A stretch of DNA of 31,888 nt, from contig LT642178.1 of assembly GCA_900128585.1 (NCBI GenBank), positions 9,471 through 41,358 on the forward strand, in the 5' to 3' direction. A program made the position numbers and the translations under genes. Every line of letters begins with the position of its first letter. The first letter of the stretch is position 1. This stretch comes from Stramenopiles sp. TOSAG23-3. Lineage: Eukaryota; Sar. Positions 1,605 to 31,884 of this stretch are shown in pieces. Under the pieces are notes generated by a model. That model searched no databases. It was given only the letters and a program-made list of their open reading frames with translations, and had not been told where the DNA came from.

Positions 1605-3923
1605 CTACAGGGGTGTCGGTTGCTTTCGCTCCTCCTGTTGCTGTTCCCATTGCAGCTTTGCACGCATATTGTTGACGTTGTTTTGGACGGTTTGATGCCC
1701 CGGCAAGTAAGCTAATGCTTGCTCGTAATGTTTTAACGCCATCTTCGTGTCCCCCATGTCGTCTGCGATGCTTCCCATGTTGTTCCACACGACACCATTT
1801 GCAGGCTCGATCTTTGTCGCCTCTAACAATTTTTCGAGTGCCTCATTTTTTCGGCCTATGTCCGAGAGCAGTACGGCTGCATTCACGCTGCCGGATATTT
1901 TATTTGGTTCAAGCCCTGTTGCCAAATCCCATTGGGCCAATGCCTCGTTCACACGATTCCCGCTCGCTAGGGAGAGCCCGTATTGGTTGCGAACATCAGC
2001 TTCGTTCAGTTCCGTCCCGGGTTCCAAGTATTTATACTTGTTCATTTCCAAGGTCAGTACGTAATGGTCCAATGCGTCTTGCAAACGCCCCTGCTCGTTT
2101 GCGATGTTTGCTGCGGTAAAGTACACTAACGGCATCCGACTGTTGTGTTTTATTGCAAGCTCGGACGCCTGCCGAGCCGATTCAATTAGCTGCGGGTCGC
2201 CAGCAAAGCCCATGTGCCTCAAGGCATAGAATTTGTGCATGTATTCTTGCGCCAAGTACCCGTAGCAATTGGCTATTCCACTCACTTCCATACTCACCGC
2301 CATTTTCATATAGCGGATGGCTTCGTCCCTGCGCGTAAGCGTTGAGTATGCCAAGCCGAGGTTGTAGTAGGCGCTCGGATTCTGAGGGTTTAACCTAATT
2401 GCTTTCGTTAACAGTTCACTGGCCCGCTGGGCATCGTTCGCGTCCCCGCTGCGCAGCAGGACCTGGGCTAAATTGTTCAAGACCTTGACGCTCTCTGGCT
2501 CTTCTCTGTAGCCGGCCTCGTATATCGAACTTTCGTCCTGCCAATCCAGGTTGCGGGTGTACGTTCCCGATGCCATGAGACAAACGATCACTCCAAACCC
2601 TATCCCAATAGGCAAACGAAATCGGCGGCTTGCGCGTCGCAACAACCCTACCATAGACCCTGGCAACATACGGTCCTCTGCGACACACAAGTCACTCCCA
2701 ACCTCGTTCGAAAAGGGCGCATAAATGATAATCCCAGCCAAAATGCAAAACCCCATGCTTGGAATGTAGAGCAACCGTTCCGCAAGCACTGTGCCTACGT
2801 AAAAAAAAATGTTCATCGCGGGGATAAAGGGTACTAACGCCAATGCTATCGAAAATCGCAACACTGCATTCTCGGAGACAAGTGCGTAGATTCCAAAACA
2901 AACAACAGCGATGTAAGCGCATAAAGGTTCAATCAACGCTGGGTCATGAAAGGACTCAACGTACGGAGTCGCATTGTACCCATGGTCGTACGACAGATGC
3001 TTCGGCCATACAAGCATCGAAGCGTAACGCCCATGAGTTTTTGCGACCGTCAGAGCCCTGGTCTTAAAAGAGTCAGAAAGGCCGATGTGGTTCTCCATGA
3101 TGGTCCACCGCCGTATGGCATGGTCCTCGTGAAGGCTTAAACGCAGCTTCAAAAGTACGGCAGTAAGGGTGCAAATGATCCCAATGCGGAGTCCGCTGTC
3201 TAGCGATGGGGTTTTAAAGGTTGGGACAGGCCGAATGACAAAAAAAATCTCATACGCGACCATCAACCCCATTACGGTTGCCCCGATCTCTTTGAATAGT
3301 GCAGAAACGACAGCGCAACACACGGCAGCACCAACCCACAGGGACACTCGTACAAGTTCAGCCCGACTCTGCAATGCCCGTTGGACCTTTGACGCTTTTG
3401 CGTACGCCATCAGGGCCAGCAGCATAAAGAAGCACGCCACAATGTCTGCGCGCCCAACCAATCCTGCTACGGCTTCCGTGTGCACTGGGTGAAGGGCGAA
3501 GATCGTTGCAGCAATTGCAGCAGGGCCAAAGTGCAGCAAGGTTCTTGTGTACGCATAAAATGTAACACACGTCAACCCATGCAAAATTGCATTGCAAATA
3601 TGGTAGCCCCCAGCTTCAAGTCCGAAAAAGTCGTAGTTCCACCGGAACGTAAGCACACAGAACGGCCTGTAACTTTTGTGACTATGCGGGGATGCAATGT
3701 TCTTGCCCCAAAAATCATGCCCAAAGACATCATGCCACTCTGTATCGCCCACCACGTCTGGGTTTCCCATAATCGCCGCGCGGTCGTCCCAAACGAACCC
3801 GGCATCAAACGTTGGCCAGTAGGTCAGGACGCTGGACAACAAAATGAAAAGAGCAAACAGCCATTCATAGCGTGTCCCAGGCCAAAGGCCGTTCTCCTCT
3901 CTTTCAACCTCACCTGCTGGCAT
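1605..3923 (-). CDS. TMTC-family protein O-mannosyltransferase (GT-C fold plus TPR repeats)
   Basis: A 772-residue multi-pass membrane protein. TM1 (about 21-37) is followed by the luminal acidic motif W45-D46-D47-R48 expected of a GT-C catalytic loop. The family signature HPVHTEAVAGLVGRAD is at 145-160, the DUF1736-type loop with K308-H309-L310-S311-Y312-D313 around 280-325, and A381-E382-R383-L384-L385-Y386 near the last TM helices. Residues about 478-755 are TPR repeats (NLAQVLLRSGD, YYNLGLAYS, NNMGSIADDMGD). Animal TMTC1-4 are ER enzymes that O-mannosylate cadherin-type domains; the donor is dolichol-phosphate mannose. Length and order match that family. The start at 3923 is kept because the next Met would remove the WDDR motif. 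The start overlaps the 3' end of the neighbouring gene by 14 bases on the same strand. Substrates in this organism are unknown. Confidence 0.92.
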   Translation of the reverse strand: MPAGEVEREENGLWPGTRYEWLFALFILLSSVLTYWPTFDAGFVWDDRAAIMGNPDVVGDTEWHDVFGHDFWGKNIASPHSHKSYRPFCVLTFRWNYDFFGLEAGGYHICNAILHGLTCVTFYAYTRTLLHFGPAAIAATIFALHPVHTEAVAGLVGRADIVACFFMLLALMAYAKASKVQRALQSRAELVRVSLWVGAAVCCAVVSALFKEIGATVMGLMVAYEIFFVIRPVPTFKTPSLDSGLRIGIICTLTAVLLKLRLSLHEDHAIRRWTIMENHIGLSDSFKTRALTVAKTHGRYASMLVWPKHLSYDHGYNATPYVESFHDPALIEPLCAYIAVVCFGIYALVSENAVLRFSIALALVPFIPAMNIFFYVGTVLAERLLYIPSMGFCILAGIIIYAPFSNEVGSDLCVAEDRMLPGSMVGLLRRASRRFRLPIGIGFGVIVCLMASGTYTRNLDWQDESSIYEAGYREEPESVKVLNNLAQVLLRSGDANDAQRASELLTKAIRLNPQNPSAYYNLGLAYSTLTRRDEAIRYMKMAVSMEVSGIANCYGYLAQEYMHKFYALRHMGFAGDPQLIESARQASELAIKHNSRMPLVYFTAANIANEQGRLQDALDHYVLTLEMNKYKYLEPGTELNEADVRNQYGLSLASGNRVNEALAQWDLATGLEPNKISGSVNAAVLLSDIGRKNEALEKLLEATKIEPANGVVWNNMGSIADDMGDTKMALKHYEQALAYLPGHQTVQNNVNNMRAKLQWEQQQEERKQPTPL

Positions 3924-12541: not shown

Positions 12542-14617
12542 TTATATCGCCACTTCCAACTTCTCTCGTGACATGAGTATCACTTCCCCCACTCTGTCCT
12601 CTGTGCCTTGACGTTTAGCAATCCACTTGTGGTCCAAATAGGTGGTCGTTCGGAAAGTCGTGTCGGGCGCGAAGGTATGGAACAGCTGGTCCTCGCCGCT
12701 GTGGCTAATCCAGTAAAGGTCAACTGGGAAAGGGTTCGTGTTCTTAAACACAACGTTCAGGCGAGACGCTAAATGATTGTTCTTGGGGCGTTTTGCGTTC
12801 CATATCCACAGATTTGCAGCCCACTTTGTTCCCTGTATAATTGGGCATCCGCCATGGAAACTCTGCGGGTCAAGTTGGGCGTCCGGAGTCTGGCTGTAGA
12901 ACAGAATGGCATCACCTTTCTTAGGGTAGACAGCCAGTCCCTCTCCCTGTCCACACTCCCACGAAAACGAGTCCGCCTTATCTCCCTCTTTGTCACCGTC
13001 GCTTTTTCCACCGCAAGCCGCCTCACAGCTAAAGGCCGTGTGCTCACAATTCACTTGCATAACTCTCCGGCCCCCTTCGCACTCGCAGTACCCTGAAATA
13101 TTTTGACCCTTTGGAATTTGCCGACCACACCCCAAGTCCATAGCCGGCACCCGGGGTCCAGAGGGGTCGCAGTCTCCCGTGGCTCGCCAGCCCACGCACC
13201 CGCGTTCAAATTGCCTGTTCGAACACTCTGTGCTCTCATCTTTATTTGCTGTGCACTGAAATGGTCCCTTCGCTTTTGCATTCTCGGCAGCCTTTGCTTT
13301 TGCGCTATTTTTAGGAGAGTGGGACCTTGATTTTGGGAAAATAGTCGCCCCTCCTTCTTCCACGTCCCCAAGGTAGCAGAAAATTGTAAGAAAGCGGTTC
13401 GATCCCCCGGGCTTCGAGGGGTCGTCGTTCTCGTACTGCCCAGTAAAGTAGTCCGTGTGCCCAACGTAGGTCTGGCCCGGCAAATAGCGGAGTATCTGTA
13501 GCCCATCTGCCATCTCTTTTTTGAAAGGCAAGCGAGCCAGAGCAAACCCCCGCCGTTGCACCGCAAGGGACTCGTTTGTGCTGGTGTCCCAGGCGTTGCG
13601 ACTTGTTCGATCAACAGAAAGGCCAGTGTTGTCTATGCCCACGGACGACCGCTTGAGTCTGTCCGTTGCAACCGCCTTGAAATGATCGATTTCGGCGTCC
13701 GACAAAAAATTACTAACGCGAAATACTAATGGTGATAAAGACAAAGTTTCCAGTCCCACTCTTTCCCCTGGCTCTGCGGGCACAACGTTCGGGGGCTGGA
13801 ACTTGTGCCCAACTGCTTGAGGTGACCACACATACAGCGCGTTATGTTGGACGTAGACAAGGTTCACCACGCCGTCGCCCCCGCTCTCCAACAATGATTT
13901 TTGGGCGTGGAAGAGTCCATCCAAATTGGCAAGTGTCCCAAAATCCGTATAGAGTTGCAATGGACCGAATTCTTTGGCCGAGCTCGGTACCACTGCCTCA
14001 ATGGCGCCCCTAAGGCTTTCGAAGCTGGCCAACTCGTGCGTCCCCAGCACCAAGGGCGTGCCGAATAGGCAGCACTTTCCGTTCGCGTGAACCCGGGTGT
14101 GTATTAACGGCAGTTTCGGGGGCATTTCAAACAACATATCCATCATCAACTTGTTCCACTTGTTTTTGTCCATGGCCTCCGGGCTGGGACGTGGCAGAAT
14201 ATGCGACCAGAAATGAGTGTGCCAGTACTCACGCGCCCTTGGGGAAATGTCCGAAGTGACCAACATGAGGAGAAAAAATCCTGCCGGCAGCAGCACGACA
14301 ATTATCCAAAACAATGTACACATCCTGTCCAGTCTAAGGTAAGTTTCAGGCCGAATGTTGATCTCCTTGGTTCCAATTGGCTCATCCTTGCCCTTCTTGT
14401 CGTTATTTCCATTCTTGACGCGCTTGGAATCGCCAGGCGCGGCGTCGGCCGTCTTGGAACGAAGCGGGTTCGTCTTGGTCGCCTGGACTGTTCGTCCTTT
14501 TCCGCTGCTTTCTTCCCCCTTTTGCTTGCCCCCTTTCGTTCCCTCTTGCCTCCTCTTCTTTCGCCCCATTACTATAACTTCGTTCAAATCTATCCACGAA
14601 TTGGGGTGGGGCTGCAA
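12542..14617 (-). CDS. Prolyl 4-hydroxylase, type II membrane, with Cys-rich insert and C-terminal VHL-beta-like domain
   Basis: A 691-residue protein. A basic cytosolic tail (1-95) precedes a single TM helix (about 99-120), giving a luminal catalytic part. Residues about 170-268 form a conserved-looking globular segment with a possible doublecortin-like/beta-grasp pattern. The 2-oxoglutarate/Fe(II) P4H domain spans about 295-610: iron ligands H387-x-D389 (GHTDYF) and H588 (SFHGGCP), with K598 (GTKWAANLWIW) to bind 2-oxoglutarate. A Cys-rich insert (about 450-556) splits the catalytic fold. Residues 620-690 match the VHL beta domain: F/N/P start, Y660, H663 and W665 in TTTYLDHKWIA correspond to the VHL hydroxyproline pocket. 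It would hydroxylate prolines of secretory proteins and possibly bind the product. An alternative start is Met17 (14569). The catalytic call is firm, the VHL call good, the beta-grasp call tentative. Confidence 0.9.
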   Translation of the reverse strand: MQPHPNSWIDLNEVIVMGRKKRRQEGTKGGKQKGEESSGKGRTVQATKTNPLRSKTADAAPGDSKRVKNGNNDKKGKDEPIGTKEINIRPETYLRLDRMCTLFWIIVVLLPAGFFLLMLVTSDISPRAREYWHTHFWSHILPRPSPEAMDKNKWNKLMMDMLFEMPPKLPLIHTRVHANGKCCLFGTPLVLGTHELASFESLRGAIEAVVPSSAKEFGPLQLYTDFGTLANLDGLFHAQKSLLESGGDGVVNLVYVQHNALYVWSPQAVGHKFQPPNVVPAEPGERVGLETLSLSPLVFRVSNFLSDAEIDHFKAVATDRLKRSSVGIDNTGLSVDRTSRNAWDTSTNESLAVQRRGFALARLPFKKEMADGLQILRYLPGQTYVGHTDYFTGQYENDDPSKPGGSNRFLTIFCYLGDVEEGGATIFPKSRSHSPKNSAKAKAAENAKAKGPFQCTANKDESTECSNRQFERGCVGWRATGDCDPSGPRVPAMDLGCGRQIPKGQNISGYCECEGGRRVMQVNCEHTAFSCEAACGGKSDGDKEGDKADSFSWECGQGEGLAVYPKKGDAILFYSQTPDAQLDPQSFHGGCPIIQGTKWAANLWIWNAKRPKNNHLASRLNVVFKNTNPFPVDLYWISHSGEDQLFHTFAPDTTFRTTTYLDHKWIAKRQGTEDRVGEVILMSREKLEVAI
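12545..12760 (-). other. VHL-beta-like domain at the C-terminus of the hydroxylase
   Basis: Residues 620-691 of the P4H gene. The pattern VVFKNTNPFPVDLYWIS, then G-x2-Q-x-F-x-T-x2-P, then TTTYLDHKWIA, follows the beta domain of von Hippel-Lindau protein. At the four human hydroxyproline-contacting positions (Y98, S111, H115, W117) this protein has F646, T659, H663 and W665. The VHL alpha domain (elongin C binding) is absent, since the protein ends here. Confidence 0.72.
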
Positions 14618-15140: not shown

Positions 15141-15731
15141 ATGACGAAGAAGAACCACGCTGGGCGTCCGTGGGAGTTCAACATTAACAACTCTTCGACG
15201 ACGGATCTGCAGCTTACTGCGGGTGATGAGAAGCTGGATGGGAAAGGTGACAACCGCCCGGGTTTACAGGCGTTAGGGTATACGAGCAAATCAGTGGTGC
15301 TGGACCAGGTTGACCAAGAGGGGGGGTCTGTGGACAAGACCCAACTTGATACTTTAGAACGAGTGGCGTGGTCCACGGCCCGCGCCCCTGCGAGCCAGCT
15401 GTTCATGACCGGTTTTATGCTTTGGATGAGTGGCGCGGGGGTCCACATTTTTAGTATTATGATCACTGGTATGGCGCTTCTAAACCCTTTGAAAGCGATC
15501 GCCAACACAGGGGAGGTGTTCAAGCGCTTTAAGGCCCCCCGCGGGGCAAGGCTGAACCTGCTGCCTATGAAGCTGACCTACATAGCAATCCAGTTGGTCG
15601 CGTTTTCAATGGGTATCTGGAAGATAAACAAAATGGGCCTTTTGCCCCTTACCAGTGCGGACTGGTCGGCTTCGATGCTGCAGTTGCGGAATTTTCAAGA
15701 AACATCCGTCCATATTACGAACGATTTGTAG
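15141..15731 (+). CDS. EMC4: ER membrane protein complex subunit 4
   Basis: A 196-residue protein, close to the roughly 183 residues of human EMC4 (TMEM85). A hydrophilic N-terminus with W11 is followed by the conserved helix and first membrane segment (about 77-114: VAWSTARAPASQLFMTGFMLWMSG...IFSIMITGMALLNPLKAI), which matches the EMC4 pattern RAWExALxPxKxxxMxxFMxxMAGxxxxIFxxM. A second hydrophobic segment spans about 142-163, then the hallmark GLLPLTSADW (166-175). The complex inserts tail-anchored and multi-pass proteins into the ER membrane. The start is the first ATG after a stop-rich leader and gives the expected length. The gene shares a divergent promoter region with the hydroxylase gene. 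Confidence 0.92.
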   Translation: MTKKNHAGRPWEFNINNSSTTDLQLTAGDEKLDGKGDNRPGLQALGYTSKSVVLDQVDQEGGSVDKTQLDTLERVAWSTARAPASQLFMTGFMLWMSGAGVHIFSIMITGMALLNPLKAIANTGEVFKRFKAPRGARLNLLPMKLTYIAIQLVAFSMGIWKINKMGLLPLTSADWSASMLQLRNFQETSVHITNDL

Positions 15732-22815: not shown

Positions 22816-25800
22816 CTATTTTTTGTTAGCCGGCGCAAACCTCTCCTTTCTCTGGCGCAATCGTTTGCAGCGGGGGCACGATGTGGCCTCCTCAATGCAT
22901 TGGCGATGAAAATATGATTTGCACCCCGTGCATGCCGACGCCTTCTTGATTTCAAACGCGTATATCGGCTTGTCGTCCGTGCAAATCTCGCACACAAATC
23001 CGCGGGCTGAGCACGTCGCACAATTTGTGGTAATATGCGTTGCTAGGTTTTGCACCTGCTCCATCAAAAACTTGTTTAATTGTTTCGACCGTATATCGCA
23101 GAAGTCTCTCATACTAAACATCTCTGTGCTCTCCATTAGATAGGAACCCCGCTCGTCGATTTCGGTACGAAGGTCGCCTCCTTGTCGGCATGTGTTCAGA
23201 AAATCTATCATTCGCGTGAGCTGCAATCGTAACAGTCGTGCATGTCGCAACTGTTTCACCTTCAGAAAAAGGTTTGGGTTCAGCGCGGACACGCAGAAAA
23301 TCGGCTGCCCATAAATGTCGTCCAAGTACACCATTACCTGGTCGCACACTTTGTATGATTTGAAATCCCAATGGTGAAGGACTCTTGTTGGTAAACTGCG
23401 GGCCGCGTTTGCGGAAGAGCACGTATTGCAATGGTACAATTCTGAATACTCACAGTAACGAACGCCATTCTTTACGGAAAGAAGGGACCCACATGAACCG
23501 CAGCGAAACCGCTGAAGGCCAATTCCAACTTTTGCCGGTACCGATTGCCCAGGTTTTGGCCGTCGCGTCACGGTAAGCGGTATATGGAACCCAGTCCACC
23601 CAACTTCGTGATCTGACGAGCGTTTCCTGGGCATACGCTCTTCCGCTGCAAGCTCACTCAAGTCCTCTTCGTGGACAGCCAAAAAGGAAACCAAAGGTTC
23701 CCTATCAGCAATCGGGACGGACTTCAAGATCTCTACAAGGCTGGACAAATATTCGTTGAGCTGCGCACGTTTCTTTTCTAGATAATTTGGCTCAAAGGAA
23801 CGAATGAGCTTAGAACGTGGGAGCTTTGGAAGGGTTGCTTTAATATGCTGGCGCGCCGCTAGGAGTGAGTGAGCGCTTTTAAACTGCGTGTACCGCCTTT
23901 TTATATCGTAAAAGCGCTGGGCGGGGCCTGTGCCGGCGCCAACTTGGCTTGTTGTTGATAGAAGTACTTCGCTAACGCGAATTAAATACCTCACGTGCGG
24001 TTTCGGGTGCATAACCACACGAAAATCAAAGACTTGAACATTTATCGAAAGTGTGCCCTCCATTTCACTGCTTGACTTGCCGGGTAGCAATTCAGTGGAA
24101 ACGTCATTGAACGATATTATTTCATCTCCCCCCGGAAAATCGGGATCTAATCGAAGCAGAGCAACATGATCTGCTTTGCCAACTATTCGAATATCATCTT
24201 GTAGTGACCAGTCAATCGGTGTTTTTGCAAATTCTTCGCGGGTGTACGGATCTGAACGAATGGGTGCTGTTTCAGGGCCTTCTACGCCATTTATCGCTTT
24301 GGTCTGCGCTAGCGGGTTCGGTTCGACATCCTGCTGCATTGTAAGTGACTGAAATTGAGATCTCCTTCGCTCTCGAATTGCTTCTAGATCCTTTTGCAGA
24401 CGTTTTCGCTCCGCTACGTATTGCGCATTTTCAGTCAAAATCTTTCCGGGTTCGGTTTCATCGGATTCAGTGATTACAGTCGTATCCACTGTGCTGTTGG
24501 CATTGCCGCCAGATATCTCTGCAACGCGCACCATACTGCTATGATCCTCCCACATTTTGTTGTTTCCATTTTCCTCCACCATTTCTCTAATTCTGTGTTC
24601 GAAACTATTTTCTCTAGACGGCAATGGCGGTGTTAAGGAGGGGCGTTGCTGAGGGGAGTGGGAGGGCGTTTGCTTGACGGAACGCTCACCGTCTGAAAAA
24701 AATTCTGCGTCACCTACGTATACGTTCTGGACTAATTCTGATAGGTCCTCTGAAGAGTAAGAGTCATAATGCAATGTAGGCCATTTCTCGCTGTTTGCTG
24801 TAGACTCGGCATCGGAATTTACGCCTATACGCACCCCGTTAATTTCTTTTTTTGGTGTTACAGTATCATGTTGGACGAGGTCGTCGTCCGCAAAATTCTT
24901 CTGTTCCACAATACTCGTGCTCCCGTCCGTTTTACAGGACTGTTTAGGACTTCGTACTTTGGCATCAACATGTGCCCTGACATGATCTTCTGTCTGGACA
25001 CCATAAATTGCATTTTGGGTCCCGTCAAGCTCATCTACACTTTCTTGACGGTTGGTTTGTTCTGCCTCAACAGGTTCTAAAAGTAGGCTTTCACCTTCCG
25101 CATTGCTATCTGTGATAACAGGTCCCTCTACTTCCCTAGGAGCGATTTGCAAAGAGTGAGCGTTGTGTTCCGTACCAGTCTCTACGGAGACAGGCGTTTC
25201 GGTGAGTTGAGTGGGGGTAGCTAGCTCATCAGGGTCCCCATGCAATGGTATTGCGCTCTCGGTGAACGGTATGTTCCTCCCTCTTATCAATTCGTGGTCT
25301 ATTTTGCGCGGTACGCTTGGAGTAACGGATGACGACTTTTCCATATCAGGCAAAGGGGGTTCATTGACCGCGGTCGCGCTCACCTCACGAATTAAAGATT
25401 CTACCCCTGAACTCTTCGTCTCCTCCGCTGCGTGAACTTTGCTTACGGAAGCTTCTCTTAGGTCTATGTCGGCACCAGCAGCGACTACTTTTACGTCGTC
25501 ACCCCCTCCTAACGCACTCATCATGTTATGTACAGATGGCACTTCATTATCTAAATGTGCCGAAGCCCATGAAGAACTGAACGCCAATTCAGGGTCAGCA
25601 TCGCTACGAGGAATCCCCGGGTTTTCGTCTATTTTCACTACTTTCTTTGATTTACCCTTCTCTTTTTTCTTTTTCTTGTGCTTTTTCTTTGCCTTCTTTT
25701 TCTTTGGTTTAGTAATTTCGGAAGTTAAAGGTGCTGCTAGCAAAGATGCATGGTCCCACGAAACTTGAGTGAACGGTGGGGCGTTTGAAGTGCCATGCTC

Positions 25801-26874
25801 CACTAAGCCAGTAACGGCATCTGTTTGGAGAGCGTCAGAGTTTTTTTCTGGCAGGACAGATGCGGCGGACAGTACTTTTGCCGCCAATGGCTTGGGAGGA
25901 ATCTCCGACTCCAAAAATGTTAAACCTAACGTCGGCCCTGGTATTTTGCCACCACTGGGGTGCACTTTCCACACTTCAAACGGTGGTGTATCCGCTGCCG
26001 AAGGGCAAAAGTAGTATACGACCTTTTTGTCAGGGTTTCCAAGGAACCAACGGTGTGTTGGCGCTGGAGTTGGCTCATCGTTTAATTTGGGGGGCTGATA
26101 TGGAGCCCTAAAAACTTCGTTGCTGCTCACTTCTGAGACGTAAGACAGGACGCCATCTTTTACTGGGCCTTCTCCGTAAAGCCCGTTCGCCTCAAGTACA
26201 CCAGCACCACGTAGCATGCAGTAGTTTTTCGTATTAGTAATGCGCACCTCATCCAACTCGGCGTAGTCAACCTTGAGCTCAAACCCAACCGTATTTAAAG
26301 CGATTATCATAGTCAAGAACACGTCTAAAATTTCTCTATTTTCCACTATTGCTTCCAAATAATAAGTCTTTCGTGTCATCGCCTGATCTTCAAAAAGGGC
26401 ACGCAAGTTAAACTCGAACGCATGTTGATTCAAAACTTGCCGAAGCCACGCGCGGCAACGCCCGTACGGCGTTTTCACGTTCATGCACAATTTTATCATG
26501 TCAATAGACGCCCCAAAAGACATGCTCCCTCTACCATATAATGCCTCCACCAACATCCAAAAGTTGGTGGTAGAATCCTTCTTCTTGCCGTCCGACACGC
26601 CTCCTTCCGTGCCCCTTTGGTCGCCCATCTCGTCGTTGGGATCGGTCGGGATCATCCCGTGAAACAAACACGTTTCCAAACACCACAGTAGAACTCTAAC
26701 ACTTTCTTTGCTATCGTCCAGCTGCTCCCCATTGTTGTCACGGGCGTCCTCCACCACATTCCGAATAGCAATTTTCAGGCGGTCCAAAATTATCTGGCGC
26801 GAGCACGTAAGTTCTTGTTGAAACTGACCATTGCCCAAACCTAAATAACCTGACACTTTGTAAAGAAAGTTCAT
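22816..26874 (-). CDS. RUN-PX-Rubicon-homology protein (late endosome/autophagy trafficking)
   Basis: A 1352-residue single-exon protein. The RUN domain is at about 20-225 (LLWCLETCLFHGMIP; FWMLVEALYG; CRAWLRQVLNQHAFEFNLRAL). A long disordered middle (about 300-900) carries a Lys block (about 389-414) and short coiled-coil propensity near 840-870. The PX domain is at about 940-1068 (RRYTQFKSAHSLL, then LPKLPRSKLIRSFEPNYLEKKR), so it probably binds PI3P. The C-terminus (about 1120-1352) is a Rubicon-homology/DUF4206 zinc domain: CGSC, HCNTC, a middle DFLNTCR helix region, and a final CATC/CEIC/CTGC/HRQC/CPRC ligand series. In Rubicon, Pacer and PLEKHM1 this domain binds Rab7. Inferred role: an endolysosomal Rab7 effector tethering PI3P membranes. 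The start is at the first Met, just ahead of the RUN domain. Confidence 0.9.
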   Translation of the reverse strand: MNFLYKVSGYLGLGNGQFQQELTCSRQIILDRLKIAIRNVVEDARDNNGEQLDDSKESVRVLLWCLETCLFHGMIPTDPNDEMGDQRGTEGGVSDGKKKDSTTNFWMLVEALYGRGSMSFGASIDMIKLCMNVKTPYGRCRAWLRQVLNQHAFEFNLRALFEDQAMTRKTYYLEAIVENREILDVFLTMIIALNTVGFELKVDYAELDEVRITNTKNYCMLRGAGVLEANGLYGEGPVKDGVLSYVSEVSSNEVFRAPYQPPKLNDEPTPAPTHRWFLGNPDKKVVYYFCPSAADTPPFEVWKVHPSGGKIPGPTLGLTFLESEIPPKPLAAKVLSAASVLPEKNSDALQTDAVTGLVEHGTSNAPPFTQVSWDHASLLAAPLTSEITKPKKKKAKKKHKKKKKEKGKSKKVVKIDENPGIPRSDADPELAFSSSWASAHLDNEVPSVHNMMSALGGGDDVKVVAAGADIDLREASVSKVHAAEETKSSGVESLIREVSATAVNEPPLPDMEKSSSVTPSVPRKIDHELIRGRNIPFTESAIPLHGDPDELATPTQLTETPVSVETGTEHNAHSLQIAPREVEGPVITDSNAEGESLLLEPVEAEQTNRQESVDELDGTQNAIYGVQTEDHVRAHVDAKVRSPKQSCKTDGSTSIVEQKNFADDDLVQHDTVTPKKEINGVRIGVNSDAESTANSEKWPTLHYDSYSSEDLSELVQNVYVGDAEFFSDGERSVKQTPSHSPQQRPSLTPPLPSRENSFEHRIREMVEENGNNKMWEDHSSMVRVAEISGGNANSTVDTTVITESDETEPGKILTENAQYVAERKRLQKDLEAIRERRRSQFQSLTMQQDVEPNPLAQTKAINGVEGPETAPIRSDPYTREEFAKTPIDWSLQDDIRIVGKADHVALLRLDPDFPGGDEIISFNDVSTELLPGKSSSEMEGTLSINVQVFDFRVVMHPKPHVRYLIRVSEVLLSTTSQVGAGTGPAQRFYDIKRRYTQFKSAHSLLAARQHIKATLPKLPRSKLIRSFEPNYLEKKRAQLNEYLSSLVEILKSVPIADREPLVSFLAVHEEDLSELAAEERMPRKRSSDHEVGWTGFHIPLTVTRRPKPGQSVPAKVGIGLQRFRCGSCGSLLSVKNGVRYCEYSELYHCNTCSSANAARSLPTRVLHHWDFKSYKVCDQVMVYLDDIYGQPIFCVSALNPNLFLKVKQLRHARLLRLQLTRMIDFLNTCRQGGDLRTEIDERGSYLMESTEMFSMRDFCDIRSKQLNKFLMEQVQNLATHITTNCATCSARGFVCEICTDDKPIYAFEIKKASACTGCKSYFHRQCIEEATSCPRCKRLRQRKERFAPANKK

Positions 26875-27453: not shown

Positions 27454-30400
27454 TTATTTTTTTTCGCTTGCTTCCATGCCTGCTTTGAGTTTTTGAACCT
27501 CCTTCTCAGCCTTAATCTTTATTTTTTCTTCCTCACTCAAATTTTCCAATTTCTTTTTCGCTGCGTCATCTGCATACTTCTTTTTCAGGTCATGTGCAAA
27601 CAAATGCTCGACGGGCTTGTAAAAATATGGACAGTACCCCAGATGGCTCATATCGCATGGGTCCATTGTAGATTCAATTTTGAGATCCTTGTTTTCGTAC
27701 TTAATTGCCATTAGGTACTGTTTCAGGAGTGTCCCCTTCTTGACTCCTTTAAATCCAGCAAATTGGATGTCCACATTCGCCGTTCCTTTCTTTTTTGCAA
27801 TGCTCAGTGCATTCTTCAAAATAAAGTTTGTGGGAGCAAATTTCCACAAGAATTTCTTTGCCATTGTGGGGCTACAATCTAAGAACCTCTTTCCTTGGTT
27901 GGATTTGGACCGTAAGTCCGTCAGTGTCTTGGGGGAGAGCGTTGATTTGGATTTAATGCAAATTTTATCGAATATATCCAAAGAAGACCCCATGGGGTCC
28001 CTCTGTTTGGATAGCATGCGCTCGCATGATTGATAACAAGTCCTTCTACCGCTCGTCATGAAATGGTCGCAAGCTTTCTTGCAAATGTCTGAATCGTATT
28101 CGTAATCATTATTCTTCATTCGGCGATCACTCACTTTCTCGTGAAACTGAAGCTGGCATATTTCGCACAATGCTTTCTTTTCGTTCGTAAGCTCGTTCGC
28201 GGGCAAACCGCCAGTAGACAGTGTATTTTCCAACGCTGTTTTTTGTGGAGTGCTCAAAGAAATAAAGTGATACTCGCCAGCTCTAGTCTCGCTTCTTTTA
28301 AAACTCATCGGTACAGAAAATTTTATGTCCAGCGGCTTACCATGGTTGTTTTTTAAGAATTTAGTGTCCCATCCAAACCCCTTTGCCTGACATACTTTTT
28401 CTGGCGCGTTACTGCATGTTTTCCCATCTGGACAACTTTCTGAACTTAGTTCCCAAGACCCACTGCTGCAGATGCGGTAAATATCCATACCCTGGTCCGG
28501 CGAACCTTCAACAACCGATCTAAGGCCACAATTGACCAAGTTTATTGCCTCGCCAATCGCTCGGTCGGATTCCAAAGTATTTTTTTCGTACTCTTTCTTC
28601 AACCGGCAACTCTGCCCCAAATGAGTGTCCCCCCACTTGAATTTTCGTTTGCAATGCTCTTTGGGCATGCATATGTCGAGCGAGTAACTCCAGAAGCAGC
28701 CTTTGTCGGATTGTGGTGGCAGGTTTGGATCTACGTCTGCACCAGAGTTGTCATAGCGAACGATACCTTTGTCATTGGGCCTGCAACTCTGTCTCAATGT
28801 CCTATCCCCCCACCTAAATTGCCATGAACAAACACCCTCCTTCTGTCTATCGTCCGCTGTGACGCACGTTGCTTTTGGCACACTCCACGTGCAGTCGTTA
28901 TCTGTCAACTGTTCTGAGCTGTCCGTAGGTTCTACTTCCGCTACTTTGCACTTTCTCGACGACGCGCATACGTGTGGGCGGACGTATTTGCTCCCATGTT
29001 GGCACCGGAAGCAGGTAGACCCATACAGGCAACATTTCCCGTCCATTTTTGGGTCTTTAGTCCAAGTGAACCAGGATTTCCCTTCTTTTGGTTTATCCGG
29101 TTTCGGCTTCTCAACTGCGGTAATATTTTTTTTATTTCGACAGCGCTGGGTCATGCTGAAATCGGTGCTCTGTGGCACAAATTCACAAGAATTAAGTGGG
29201 ACGCACCTGGCTTGTCGCCCGTCCCATTTGCAATCTTTCTCCTCCATTGGTGTAACCATGTCTTCGGCTTCTTCCTCTTCCTCGCTCGAGACTGGCTCCT
29301 TTTCCGGCTGAAGCGTTCCTTGCTGGTCGGTCTTTTTTTCTTTTTTCGTTCCAACGAAACCGCGTTCAATGAAAGAAAGGTCGTCTTCCACCCCCCCCGT
29401 CCCCCCCTCGTTGCCATCTTTCTTGCTCGCTACGGTGCCTTCCTGGGGCTTTACTCCCCCTCCTGTCATGGCTTCTGGGGGTGCATTTGGATCAGCGCAT
29501 GTGGCTTCCAGATCACTGGCTTTGAAGAACTCATCATAGGGCATCTTCCCATGGTTGTATGGATACGTGCTTTGTTTGTAGACAACGTTTAAGAACGAAA
29601 ACTCTGGCAAGCTCCTGAGTCTCAACCAGTTCTTAGTGCCACCATACAAAACATGGTATGGTGTGAAGATTCTTCCCTCAGAATTCATTTCGTGCATTGG
29701 CACAACGTTTGTGGGCGCTGCCCGCTTCTCCGGTTTCGCCGGGCTCCCGTTGAGCTCCAAAAATCCCGTGGGGGGGCTCGATTGTCGCGTTTTTAAAGAA
29801 TGCCGGAATGCTTCCAACATTCTCGTAACAACTCGGGCTGTTGTCCTCTGTTTAATTCCGGTTTCGTACTCGAACTCTACCCTCGTTAGCATCTGAAAAT
29901 ATTGTACATCCGTGAACGTGCAGTCCAGCTCGAAATTATTCAGTTCGCTCTTCAACGGCGACGAATTGTCTTTTGAGTTGCTTGCAATGGATACAGCATC
30001 AATCACCCGCTGGATCTCAATTGTTTCCAATGCGGCGGTGAAAAATTTGTGCAAATCCGTCTTGCGCTTTTCCCCCCATGCAATGTTTGATCTGAAATAA
30101 ATATTCTTTGGAATTCCGCGCTTCAAGTCAACCAAATCTTTCATGATTCCTTCTCGTATTTTGTCGTTGTTCAGTAAATCGTGCAGCCGTTTGTACCTGG
30201 GATCATCCCCCATCTTGTACGTCTGCCAATTCGCAATAATATTTAATACTTCTCCATTTATGGTTTCGAAGACCTCTTTCATACCATGCCGCATTGACAT
30301 TGTTGAGAGGGTTCTGGCCAGAACCGCTTCCGGGATGTCATCGTAATTTGCTAGCTGCGCCATGCTCCCAATGTCCGCCGATCGTCCATAAAATTCTGCT

Positions 30401-31884
30401 TTGGCGCCAGGGATGGTAGCAAACGCGTACTCAGAAAACATTACTTCGTAGCCATAAACGCCTGTCTCTTTCGTCATTAGGTTGTTGTATGATTCCCCCC
30501 CTTCTCCTATCAACACTAGCCTAGACGTTAAATATATCCCAAATTCGTCGCACTTGGCCTTGACGTCTTTAGGTGCCCCCAATTTGGAACAATAGCTCGT
30601 TATGGCGGGCGCGATTCTCTCTTGGGCGTACATGGTAGCAATGCAGTTTTCGTAGTCCTGGCCTATCGGTTTCTCTTCAAAGTCGCACTTGTTGCACGTT
30701 TTTATGGGTGGTGGCATATTTTTCCGCTTTCGACAAGACTGTCCCAAGTGCATGTCCCCGAACTGATACTGCCGATTGCAATACCGGTGTGGCATGCACA
30801 TGCCTACCTTGTAGTCCCATGTGCAATCCTTGTCTTTGTGTTCCGCTTCAAAGTCCCCCGTTGTGCCCGGGCGAACTCTGCACGAAGTATCCAACCGCAT
30901 ATCCCACAATTTTGGCTGATACTGGCAGTGTGCTTCGTTCATGCATTTGCCCACCTTTTGGAAGTTGTACTTGCAGTCGGCATCCGTCCATTTCTTCTTG
31001 TCGTCTACAGCTCTTTTCCGGTCTCGGTTAAGAGCTTCTTGGACGATCCCAAGAATTGTGCGTGCCGGCTTGAGCTCGGTGATTTTGTTCGGCCTTTCTG
31101 TGTCTTTGCCACCGCAATTTGCGGTTGCCCACGTTTCGGCGGCTTTATAATCACTCATCACAACATTAGCGATGGTTTTAACGATACCTTGAGCAGTCAA
31201 GAAACTGGCTGCAGTGCATTGACCGCCCGATGGTTTCATTGCGAGCATCTCGGCGACTTTGGGGTCCGAGTCGGCCACCAGACCAACGTGACGGGTTTTT
31301 TCGTACTCCATTCGCAGACTTTTGGGGTTATTGCAATACTTGTCAATGCCGTCAAAAATGGTCCGTGTTTCCGTCTCCCGTGCTTTGGCAGCAGCTCGGA
31401 CAAACATGTTCAGAGAGTCGCCTATAGTAATCATTGTGTACCAATTTTCGCCCGGGAAGTTCATGGAAGAAACGGCAGAAGCGTGGTTGCATAGGACCCT
31501 ACAGGACGAAAAACTTTCGCCCTCTTTAATGTTCGATAGGCACATCTCTGTATTGCATTTGGAAAAATCAAACGACAAGCCGTCTGTATATCTCGCAGCG
31601 AGTAATCCTATGATGTCTTTCATGCGAGTATTGACGTTGTCATTTGTGTTATCTTGGACGTCGTTGCTGTAAAATGAATCACACGCCTTTTGCGCATCTT
31701 CCTCGCTGGAGGAGCCTTCCGTTCCCTGGAACAAAATTTTGCACGATTCCCTGGGCAGAGTCATCGGTTGCCTCATTGCCGAGTCTGGGTTGCCCTGTTG
31801 CGTAGTGATAAACCGGAAGACAAAGGTCAAAAAGTTGTTGATTTTGACATCGTTATCTGCCTCGTTCCTGTAGTATTCGCACAT
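27454..31884 (-). CDS. Large Cys-rich protein with five-copy Cys repeat, 5' end cut by window edge
   Basis: At least 1476 residues; the frame is still open at the right edge, so the Met at 31884 is probably internal and any signal peptide lies outside. Five repeats of about 37-45 residues share D-x-[DG]-C-x-[WFY], a second Cys, a third Cys and a final SCR or RCR: they begin at Cys 304, 354, 885, 998 and 1063. Between repeats 2 and 3 lies a 480-residue segment with few Cys and mixed helical character. Other Cys clusters are at about 40-140, 385-440 and 1240-1300, and a CCLYGSTCFRCQHG block lies near 955. The C-terminus is Lys/Glu-rich and helical (KLENLSEEEKIKIKAEKE). The Cys pattern suggests an extracellular or luminal protein. 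I recognise no named family. Confidence 0.85.
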   Translation of the reverse strand: MCEYYRNEADNDVKINNFLTFVFRFITTQQGNPDSAMRQPMTLPRESCKILFQGTEGSSSEEDAQKACDSFYSNDVQDNTNDNVNTRMKDIIGLLAARYTDGLSFDFSKCNTEMCLSNIKEGESFSSCRVLCNHASAVSSMNFPGENWYTMITIGDSLNMFVRAAAKARETETRTIFDGIDKYCNNPKSLRMEYEKTRHVGLVADSDPKVAEMLAMKPSGGQCTAASFLTAQGIVKTIANVVMSDYKAAETWATANCGGKDTERPNKITELKPARTILGIVQEALNRDRKRAVDDKKKWTDADCKYNFQKVGKCMNEAHCQYQPKLWDMRLDTSCRVRPGTTGDFEAEHKDKDCTWDYKVGMCMPHRYCNRQYQFGDMHLGQSCRKRKNMPPPIKTCNKCDFEEKPIGQDYENCIATMYAQERIAPAITSYCSKLGAPKDVKAKCDEFGIYLTSRLVLIGEGGESYNNLMTKETGVYGYEVMFSEYAFATIPGAKAEFYGRSADIGSMAQLANYDDIPEAVLARTLSTMSMRHGMKEVFETINGEVLNIIANWQTYKMGDDPRYKRLHDLLNNDKIREGIMKDLVDLKRGIPKNIYFRSNIAWGEKRKTDLHKFFTAALETIEIQRVIDAVSIASNSKDNSSPLKSELNNFELDCTFTDVQYFQMLTRVEFEYETGIKQRTTARVVTRMLEAFRHSLKTRQSSPPTGFLELNGSPAKPEKRAAPTNVVPMHEMNSEGRIFTPYHVLYGGTKNWLRLRSLPEFSFLNVVYKQSTYPYNHGKMPYDEFFKASDLEATCADPNAPPEAMTGGGVKPQEGTVASKKDGNEGGTGGVEDDLSFIERGFVGTKKEKKTDQQGTLQPEKEPVSSEEEEEAEDMVTPMEEKDCKWDGRQARCVPLNSCEFVPQSTDFSMTQRCRNKKNITAVEKPKPDKPKEGKSWFTWTKDPKMDGKCCLYGSTCFRCQHGSKYVRPHVCASSRKCKVAEVEPTDSSEQLTDNDCTWSVPKATCVTADDRQKEGVCSWQFRWGDRTLRQSCRPNDKGIVRYDNSGADVDPNLPPQSDKGCFWSYSLDICMPKEHCKRKFKWGDTHLGQSCRLKKEYEKNTLESDRAIGEAINLVNCGLRSVVEGSPDQGMDIYRICSSGSWELSSESCPDGKTCSNAPEKVCQAKGFGWDTKFLKNNHGKPLDIKFSVPMSFKRSETRAGEYHFISLSTPQKTALENTLSTGGLPANELTNEKKALCEICQLQFHEKVSDRRMKNNDYEYDSDICKKACDHFMTSGRRTCYQSCERMLSKQRDPMGSSLDIFDKICIKSKSTLSPKTLTDLRSKSNQGKRFLDCSPTMAKKFLWKFAPTNFILKNALSIAKKKGTANVDIQFAGFKGVKKGTLLKQYLMAIKYENKDLKIESTMDPCDMSHLGYCPYFYKPVEHLFAHDLKKKYADDAAKKKLENLSEEEKIKIKAEKEVQKLKAGMEASEKK
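28594..28893 (-). repeat. Cys repeat copies 4 and 5 in the large protein
   Basis: Copy 4 starts DNDCTWSV and carries a slightly longer middle (TADDRQKEGVCSWQFRWGD). Copy 5 starts DKGCFWSY, has DICMPKEHCKRKFKWGD, and ends GQSCRLKKE. Copies 2 and 5 are the most alike (both MP-x2-C and DxHLGQSCR). Confidence 0.8.
29125..29232 (-). repeat. Cys repeat copy 3 in the large protein
   Basis: The copy starts EKDCKWDG, has ARCVPLNSCEF, and ends TQRCRNKKN. It is separated from copy 2 by about 500 codons and lies after an acidic low-complexity stretch (SSEEEEEAED). Confidence 0.75.
30717..30975 (-). repeat. Cys repeat copies 1 and 2 in the large protein
   Basis: Copy 1 starts DADCKYNF and copy 2 starts DKDCTWDY. 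Both contain KVGKCM or KVGMCM, then EAHCQYQ or HRYCNRQ, a W/F-x-D-M-x-L step, and end TSCR or QSCR. The spacing between first Cys residues is 50 codons. Confidence 0.8.

Follow-up and report, generated by a model that had tools for sequence, protein, structure and literature searches.

A prolyl 4-hydroxylase with a VHL-type beta domain in a stramenopile, and its protist relatives

Can the making of hydroxyproline and its recognition reside in one polypeptide? The question is raised by a gene in a 31,888-nucleotide stretch of DNA from Stramenopiles sp. TOSAG23-3 (assembly GCA_900128585.1, contig LT642178.1, positions 9,471 to 41,358; hereafter, the window), for which an original prediction, made from the letters alone, proposed a prolyl 4-hydroxylase (P4H) continued by a hydroxyproline-reading domain of the VHL type. 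pVHL is the textbook hydroxyproline reader and, to our knowledge, such readers are few. The gene lies in a 691-codon frame on the minus strand (12542-14617), open from a TTG at 14617; translation probably starts at codon 17, an ATG at position 14569, and yields a protein of 675 amino acids, P0002, represented in the protein collection by 10 member sequences and 11 contigs. P4H and VHL beta folds, together with the catalytic residues, are joined here in one chain, both domains lying in a single frame with no intervening stop. The order is a basic N-terminal tail, a hydrophobic helix, a small N-terminal domain, a P4H domain with a cysteine-rich insert, and the VHL-type tail. The features of the enzyme and of the tail are as follows (all on the minus strand; residues are those of the 691-codon frame, and the 142 tails are those of the VHL-tailed P4Hs described below):

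12542..14569 (-), P4H-VHL gene as read from the probable ATG start, 675 amino acids, uninterrupted
12797..13750 (-), prolyl 4-hydroxylase catalytic domain (2OG-FeII_Oxy_3), split by the cysteine-rich insert
13457..13459 (-), H387, iron ligand (HxD), invariant in 32/32 aligned P4Hs
13451..13453 (-), D389, iron ligand (HxD), invariant in 32/32 aligned P4Hs
12854..12856 (-), H588, distal iron ligand, invariant in 32/32 aligned P4Hs
12824..12826 (-), K598, 2-oxoglutarate-binding lysine, invariant in 32/32 aligned P4Hs
12545..12772 (-), VHL beta domain, residues 616-691
12710..12712 (-), W636, pocket position of pVHL W88; 98 W, 21 Y and 18 F among 142 tails
12680..12682 (-), F646, pocket position of pVHL Y98; always F or Y among the nine family members, unconserved beyond them
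12641..12643 (-), T659, pocket position of pVHL S111; S or T in 137/142 tails
12629..12631 (-), H663, pocket position of pVHL H115; H in 132/142 tails
12623..12625 (-), W665, pocket position of pVHL W117; 108 W and 33 F among 142 tails

The enzymatic part matches Pfam 2OG-FeII_Oxy_3 (PF13640) at E 1.5e-12 (48.7 bits against a cut-off of 27), the complete catalytic set that had been claimed is indeed in place, and the predicted fold is that of solved P4Hs. With Chlamydomonas Cr-P4H-1 (2jig/3gze) the protein has the catalytic HxD...H...K in common, and it is 38% identical to 3gze across 201 aligned residues; it adds the N-terminal domain, the cysteine-rich insert and the VHL-type tail, for which the 213-residue 3gze chain is too short. 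Human P4H-TM (6tp5) carries an EF-hand domain and no VHL domain, and the catalytic fold of P0002 is not closer to the HIF prolyl hydroxylase PHD2 (PHD/EGLN) than to algal or transmembrane P4H.

The identity of the tail rests on profile, alignment and model. Pfam VHL (PF01847) is matched significantly, as the prediction of a VHL-like segment demanded, both by the full protein (E 8.6e-09, 35.7 bits against a cut-off of 21, residues 619-675) and by the 86-residue tail scanned alone (E 3e-10), and in phmmer the tail gives a gap-free alignment with human pVHL (1lm8_V) at E 7.3e-5. Structure comparison of the full model covered the P4H part only; the tail, modelled separately and compared at the level of fold, has the beta-sandwich of the pVHL beta domain, which is what had been expected. 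This fold is shared with metazoan pVHL (1lm8, 1lqb, 4awj) over pVHL 67-151, with W88, S/T111, H115, W117 and an aromatic residue at 98 kept; P0002 differs in having no alpha domain, elongin-C box or peripheral HIF contacts, and in being fused to a hydroxyproline-making enzyme with a predicted luminal-side membrane anchor. By alignment, the pocket W88/Y98/S111/H115/W117 reads W/F/T/H/W here, both changes being conservative; these are the hydroxyproline contacts of the VHL-HIF structures 1lm8 and 1lqb. S/T111 and H115 of pVHL hydrogen-bond the hydroxyl. The F, T, H and W originally read at four of the contact positions are correct, and the fifth contact, W88 (W636), matches too.

It is scarcely conceivable that the join is an assembly artefact or a read-through of two genes: a protein search recovered eight homologues built in the same way, with 40-48% identity across the aligned region, which excludes an artefact; P0002 itself recurs in 11 contigs with the frame unbroken between the domains, and nothing in favour of an artefact was found. 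All nine family members keep W88, H115 and W117; at position 98 they have F or Y, and at 111 S or T. The precomputed Pfam column gives VHL for six of the nine, and a scan at E <= 10 for all nine. Outside them, the VHL-like tails of P4H matches are mostly missed by Pfam: VHL is reported in 3/20 proteins of one relative set, equal to the number of the nine found there, and at E <= 1 in 13/42 of another, nine of these rows being the family itself, while the precomputed column gives the catalytic domain only for all 120 proteins listed by one search (the best 120 of 247). Built from the nine members and nothing else, a profile detects the domain in 112 of the 169 protist P4Hs collected, of which 103 do not belong to the nine; iteration raises the number with a VHL-like tail to 142 of the 169, and shuffled tails gave no match to the tail profile at E <= 0.01 (0/2,440). 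The 169 were collected with tail-bearing queries, that same search contributing its best 120 of 247, and the candidates scored were those sharing most words; among protist P4Hs as a whole, the tailed share may therefore well be lower than 142/169. When 32 divergent tails (one per 40%-identity cluster, none of the nine) were made into a profile and searched against solved structures, human VHL came out top at E 6.5e-6. An earlier profile, from 22 of these 32 representatives, placed human VHL at E 0.0012 beneath two designed Scone proteins, both of which are sums of weak repeats; the ten representatives omitted from it included four without H115.

The arrangement is that of a large, widespread protist family, a point missed by the original prediction. 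Among the matches listed, carriers include the oomycetes Phytophthora, Aphanomyces, Saprolegnia and Achlya, as well as Ectocarpus, Pylaiella, Tribonema, Nannochloropsis, Nitzschia and Cylindrotheca; one further carrier, P0017, stands under a Cercozoa taxid, although such transcriptome labels can be wrong. A tree of the catalytic domain (80 rows, 66 tailed) requires two changes of tail label, against a mean of 13 for shuffled labels, and unites the nine family members in one clade with support 99. This FastTree tree has 25 open forks, some long branches and a root set for drawing only, so that a history of a single fusion and a single loss fits it without being proven. A tailless clade of related protist P4Hs, diatom names included (P0013, P0014, P0016, P0028, P0034, P0038, P0044 and kin), without [ED]L endings, looks like a case of tail loss. 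A prokaryotic P4H-VHL was absent from a genome-contig scan resting on two short patterns, and VHL on plasmids gave no match. A viral origin was considered and set aside: two viral-contig scans returned no relatives, and Foldseek against viral models returned low identity only (best, pithovirus LCPAC202, E 2.3e-4, 10%).

Both parts of the protein are of known kinds; their combination was not described in the titles and abstract openings of the open-access papers searched. The nearest published biology among the papers considered is in PMC5999078, which reports that Phytophthora infestans has a P4H family of 17 members and that mating induces 12 of these; its main text does not mention VHL, and neither does the main text of PMC11321763.

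How faithfully is the pocket kept across so diverse a set? In an alignment of 120 tails, conservation is highest in seven columns, those of pVHL 78, 115, 76, 117, 88, 86 and 111; four of the five pocket positions fall among them, with Y98 outside. (Counts over 120 or 122 tails refer to a smaller set, the motif used to cut out tails having missed 22 tailed proteins that a full-length scan recovered.) An aromatic residue at 88, S/T111, H115 and W/F117 occur together in 132 of the 142 tails (52 of the 57 clusters when these are grouped at 50% identity), and the same set with an aromatic at 98 in 53 of 142. From these counts, the side of the pocket that binds the hydroxyl is retained in almost all tails and the Y98 side only in the nine.

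The cellular location bears on what such a pocket could meet. The feature concerned is:

14258..14314 (-), single transmembrane helix, residues 102-120 of the 691-residue frame, from hydropathy

In the predicted model the membrane helix corresponds to residues 74-108 of P0002. It is preceded by 23 K/R against 11 D/E, a basic N side from which type II anchoring is expected, the C-terminal part facing the lumen. [ED]L endings occur in 79 of the 142 VHL-tailed P4Hs and in none of the 27 tailless ones, KDEL being commonest (23/79). The helix predicts a luminal location for both domains of P0002, as was originally proposed, and the endings of the relatives are consistent with it.

We interpret P0002 as a type II membrane-anchored secretory P4H whose VHL-type tail would hold, by its pocket, a substrate proline or, more likely, hydroxyproline, a reading for and against which we find the case evenly poised. 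The catalytic domain would hydroxylate prolines within the lumen of the endoplasmic reticulum (ER), and the C-terminal beta domain would grip the same substrate chain. If the tail held a hydroxylated stretch while the active site shifted to the next proline, neighbouring prolines could be modified in turn; the tail may also retain modified chains in the ER. An effect of the tail on catalysis, as a second substrate site, is suggested by analogy: some other enzymes bind their own mark, and in the collagen P4H alpha subunit (catalytic part 7zsc), a functional analogue, a separate domain binds the proline-rich chain and aids processivity. That domain has a tetratricopeptide repeat (TPR) fold and lies on the N-terminal side, whereas P0002 has a C-terminal VHL beta domain. 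Since many algal, oomycete and other protists have relatives built in this way, the enzyme and its possible reader may act together as a single unit.

Several observations weigh against this interpretation. P0002 itself has no ER-retention ending, and pVHL N67, R69 and H110 are replaced by H615, A617 and T658. The Y98 position is aromatic in 53 of 142 tails only (37 W, 15 F, 1 Y). H115 is absent from ten of the 142 (P0018, P0037, P0042, P0045, P0057, P0113, P0121, P0123, P0125 and P0145), its place being taken by R, D, Q, A, V or T, so that the domain is retained and the pocket altered; together with the tailless clade, these tails imply that the tail is not needed for catalysis in general. 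Further, the pocket residues are not peculiar to hydroxylases. VHL domains were found in none of six bacterial genomes and nowhere in the class Gammaproteobacteria (0/369); over the cut-off, they were absent from the family of a Colwellia genome (0/147) and present in 22 of 282 genomes in the phylum of a Myxococcales genome. Nineteen of 20 bacterial loci gave 21 VHL domains with the tail profile (L124 gave none), and two of the frames, in L114 and L120, carry two VHL beta domains each. W88, H115 and W117 are kept in all 21 of these domains and S/T111 in 18, although the bacterial domains were chosen by PF01847, which favours pocket residues, and the P4H tails mainly via the enzyme. With the P4H profile, no frame of at least 50 residues in these loci betters E 0.34, a scan whose reach was the 2.1-3.2 kb of each locus, short of a P4H that is distant or elsewhere in the genome. 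These bacterial VHL-beta proteins thus have domain and pocket residues in common with P0002, with no P4H in their loci of about 3 kb, and several appear secreted or lipoprotein-like on inspection of the N-terminus. PMC9002001 likewise concerns bacterial VHL-beta proteins, in Litorilituus. A pocket kept in bacteria with no P4H seen nearby marks a domain superfamily and is not proof of a hydroxyproline ligand. The identity of the histidine and tryptophan with those of pVHL, as originally noted, is correct, and as an argument for reading it is weak, since the bacterial domains keep both residues.

It is possible, on the unlikely side, that the tail is instead a general substrate-targeting module of the VHL fold with a different ligand, for example a substrate glycan or an unmodified segment of the proline-rich or polyproline II type. 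The bacterial proteins, with the same pocket residues and no P4H seen nearby, would fit this, as would the relatives' preference for M, W or L at the Y98 position (44, 37 and 17 of 142) and the weak CBM49 matches in two of 20 relatives (best E 0.045); it sits less easily with the retention of S/T111 and H115, the residues that bond the hydroxyl in pVHL, in 137 and 132 of 142 tails, and with F or Y at position 98 in the nine closest proteins. A purely structural tail, packing on the catalytic core or driving oligomerisation with its conserved residues maintaining the fold, is quite improbable. Superfamily-wide conservation of the same residues is what fold-keeping residues should show, N78 and F76, neither of them a hydroxyproline contact, are conserved to the same degree, and ten of 142 tails retain the fold signature without H115; yet H115 and W117 line an open ligand pocket in pVHL, pVHL itself binds through that pocket, and a tailless clade of related P4Hs exists. 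For an oxygen-dependent ubiquitin-ligase receptor resembling metazoan VHL, the presence of the beta domain would speak, and we regard it as very improbable indeed. The protein ends 26 residues past W665, with the beta domain and with no alpha domain; the elongin-C BC-box motif is absent from P0002 and matched in one of 122 tails; and the predicted membrane anchor and the [ED]L endings of the family point elsewhere. Lacking the alpha domain, the protein does not belong among VHL ubiquitin-ligase receptors, and the original prediction, which reported the alpha domain missing and called ligase coupling unlikely, holds on both counts.

Returning to the gene carrying this candidate self-reading P4H, two further parts of the protein deserve description:

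12971..13264 (-), cysteine-rich insert between the catalytic halves; eight of its cysteines shared by all nine family members; no Pfam match
13850..14107 (-), N-terminal domain with an N-G-x-C-C invariant in the family; predicted beta-beta-alpha-beta-beta-alpha-beta

The insert follows the pattern C-x-x-W ... C-D-P ... S-G-Y-C-E-C ... C-E-H ... C. The strand order of the N-terminal domain, in the predicted structure, resembles a beta-grasp arrangement and suggested a doublecortin- or ubiquitin-like domain; this gained no support, Pfam and PDB profile searches giving no convincing match. A weak Ubiquitin_DCDC1 match (E 0.0049) appears in one of 42 relatives scanned.

Within the assembly (12.9 Mb, 660 contigs), the only PF01847 match is the P4H-VHL gene; a second VHL gene was not found by such matches, which divergent tails elsewhere would escape. 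2OG-FeII_Oxy_3 matches lie at at least nine places, this gene included, and the open frames of the other eight loci showed no VHL-type tail. Neighbouring genes are ordinary eukaryotic ones, among them ribosomal S4e, a dual-specificity phosphatase, and ankyrin and PH proteins. Two ER proteins are nearby: a TMTC-like O-mannosyltransferase with TPRs (1605-3923, minus strand) and ER membrane complex subunit 4 (EMC4; 15141-15731, plus strand). A 1,352-residue protein at 22816-26874 (minus strand) combines RUN, PX and Rubicon homology domains, reminiscent of animal Rubicon/PLEKHM proteins, and a 1,476-residue frame at 27454-31884 (minus strand), with no Pfam match over the cut-off, shows by eye repeated cysteine-rich units, C-x-W-x(n)-C-M-P ... 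G-D-x-x-L-x-Q-S-C-R.

The tailed family supplies an identity for the C-terminal ends of oomycete, brown-alga and diatom P4Hs, and bears on processive hydroxylation of protist wall and matrix proteins. A VHL beta domain inside a hydroxyproline-making enzyme also offers a direct route to the role of the pocket outside HIF degradation. We suggest, tentatively and with more doubt than conviction, that several stramenopile groups, and perhaps others, have long used a luminal self-reading P4H that both writes hydroxyproline and reads it through a VHL beta domain. If this is true, VHL would have read hydroxyproline before HIF and the ubiquitin ligase and independently of both, and the animal PHD-VHL pair would be a later, split and relocated form of a writer-reader partnership that belonged to matrix-protein synthesis.
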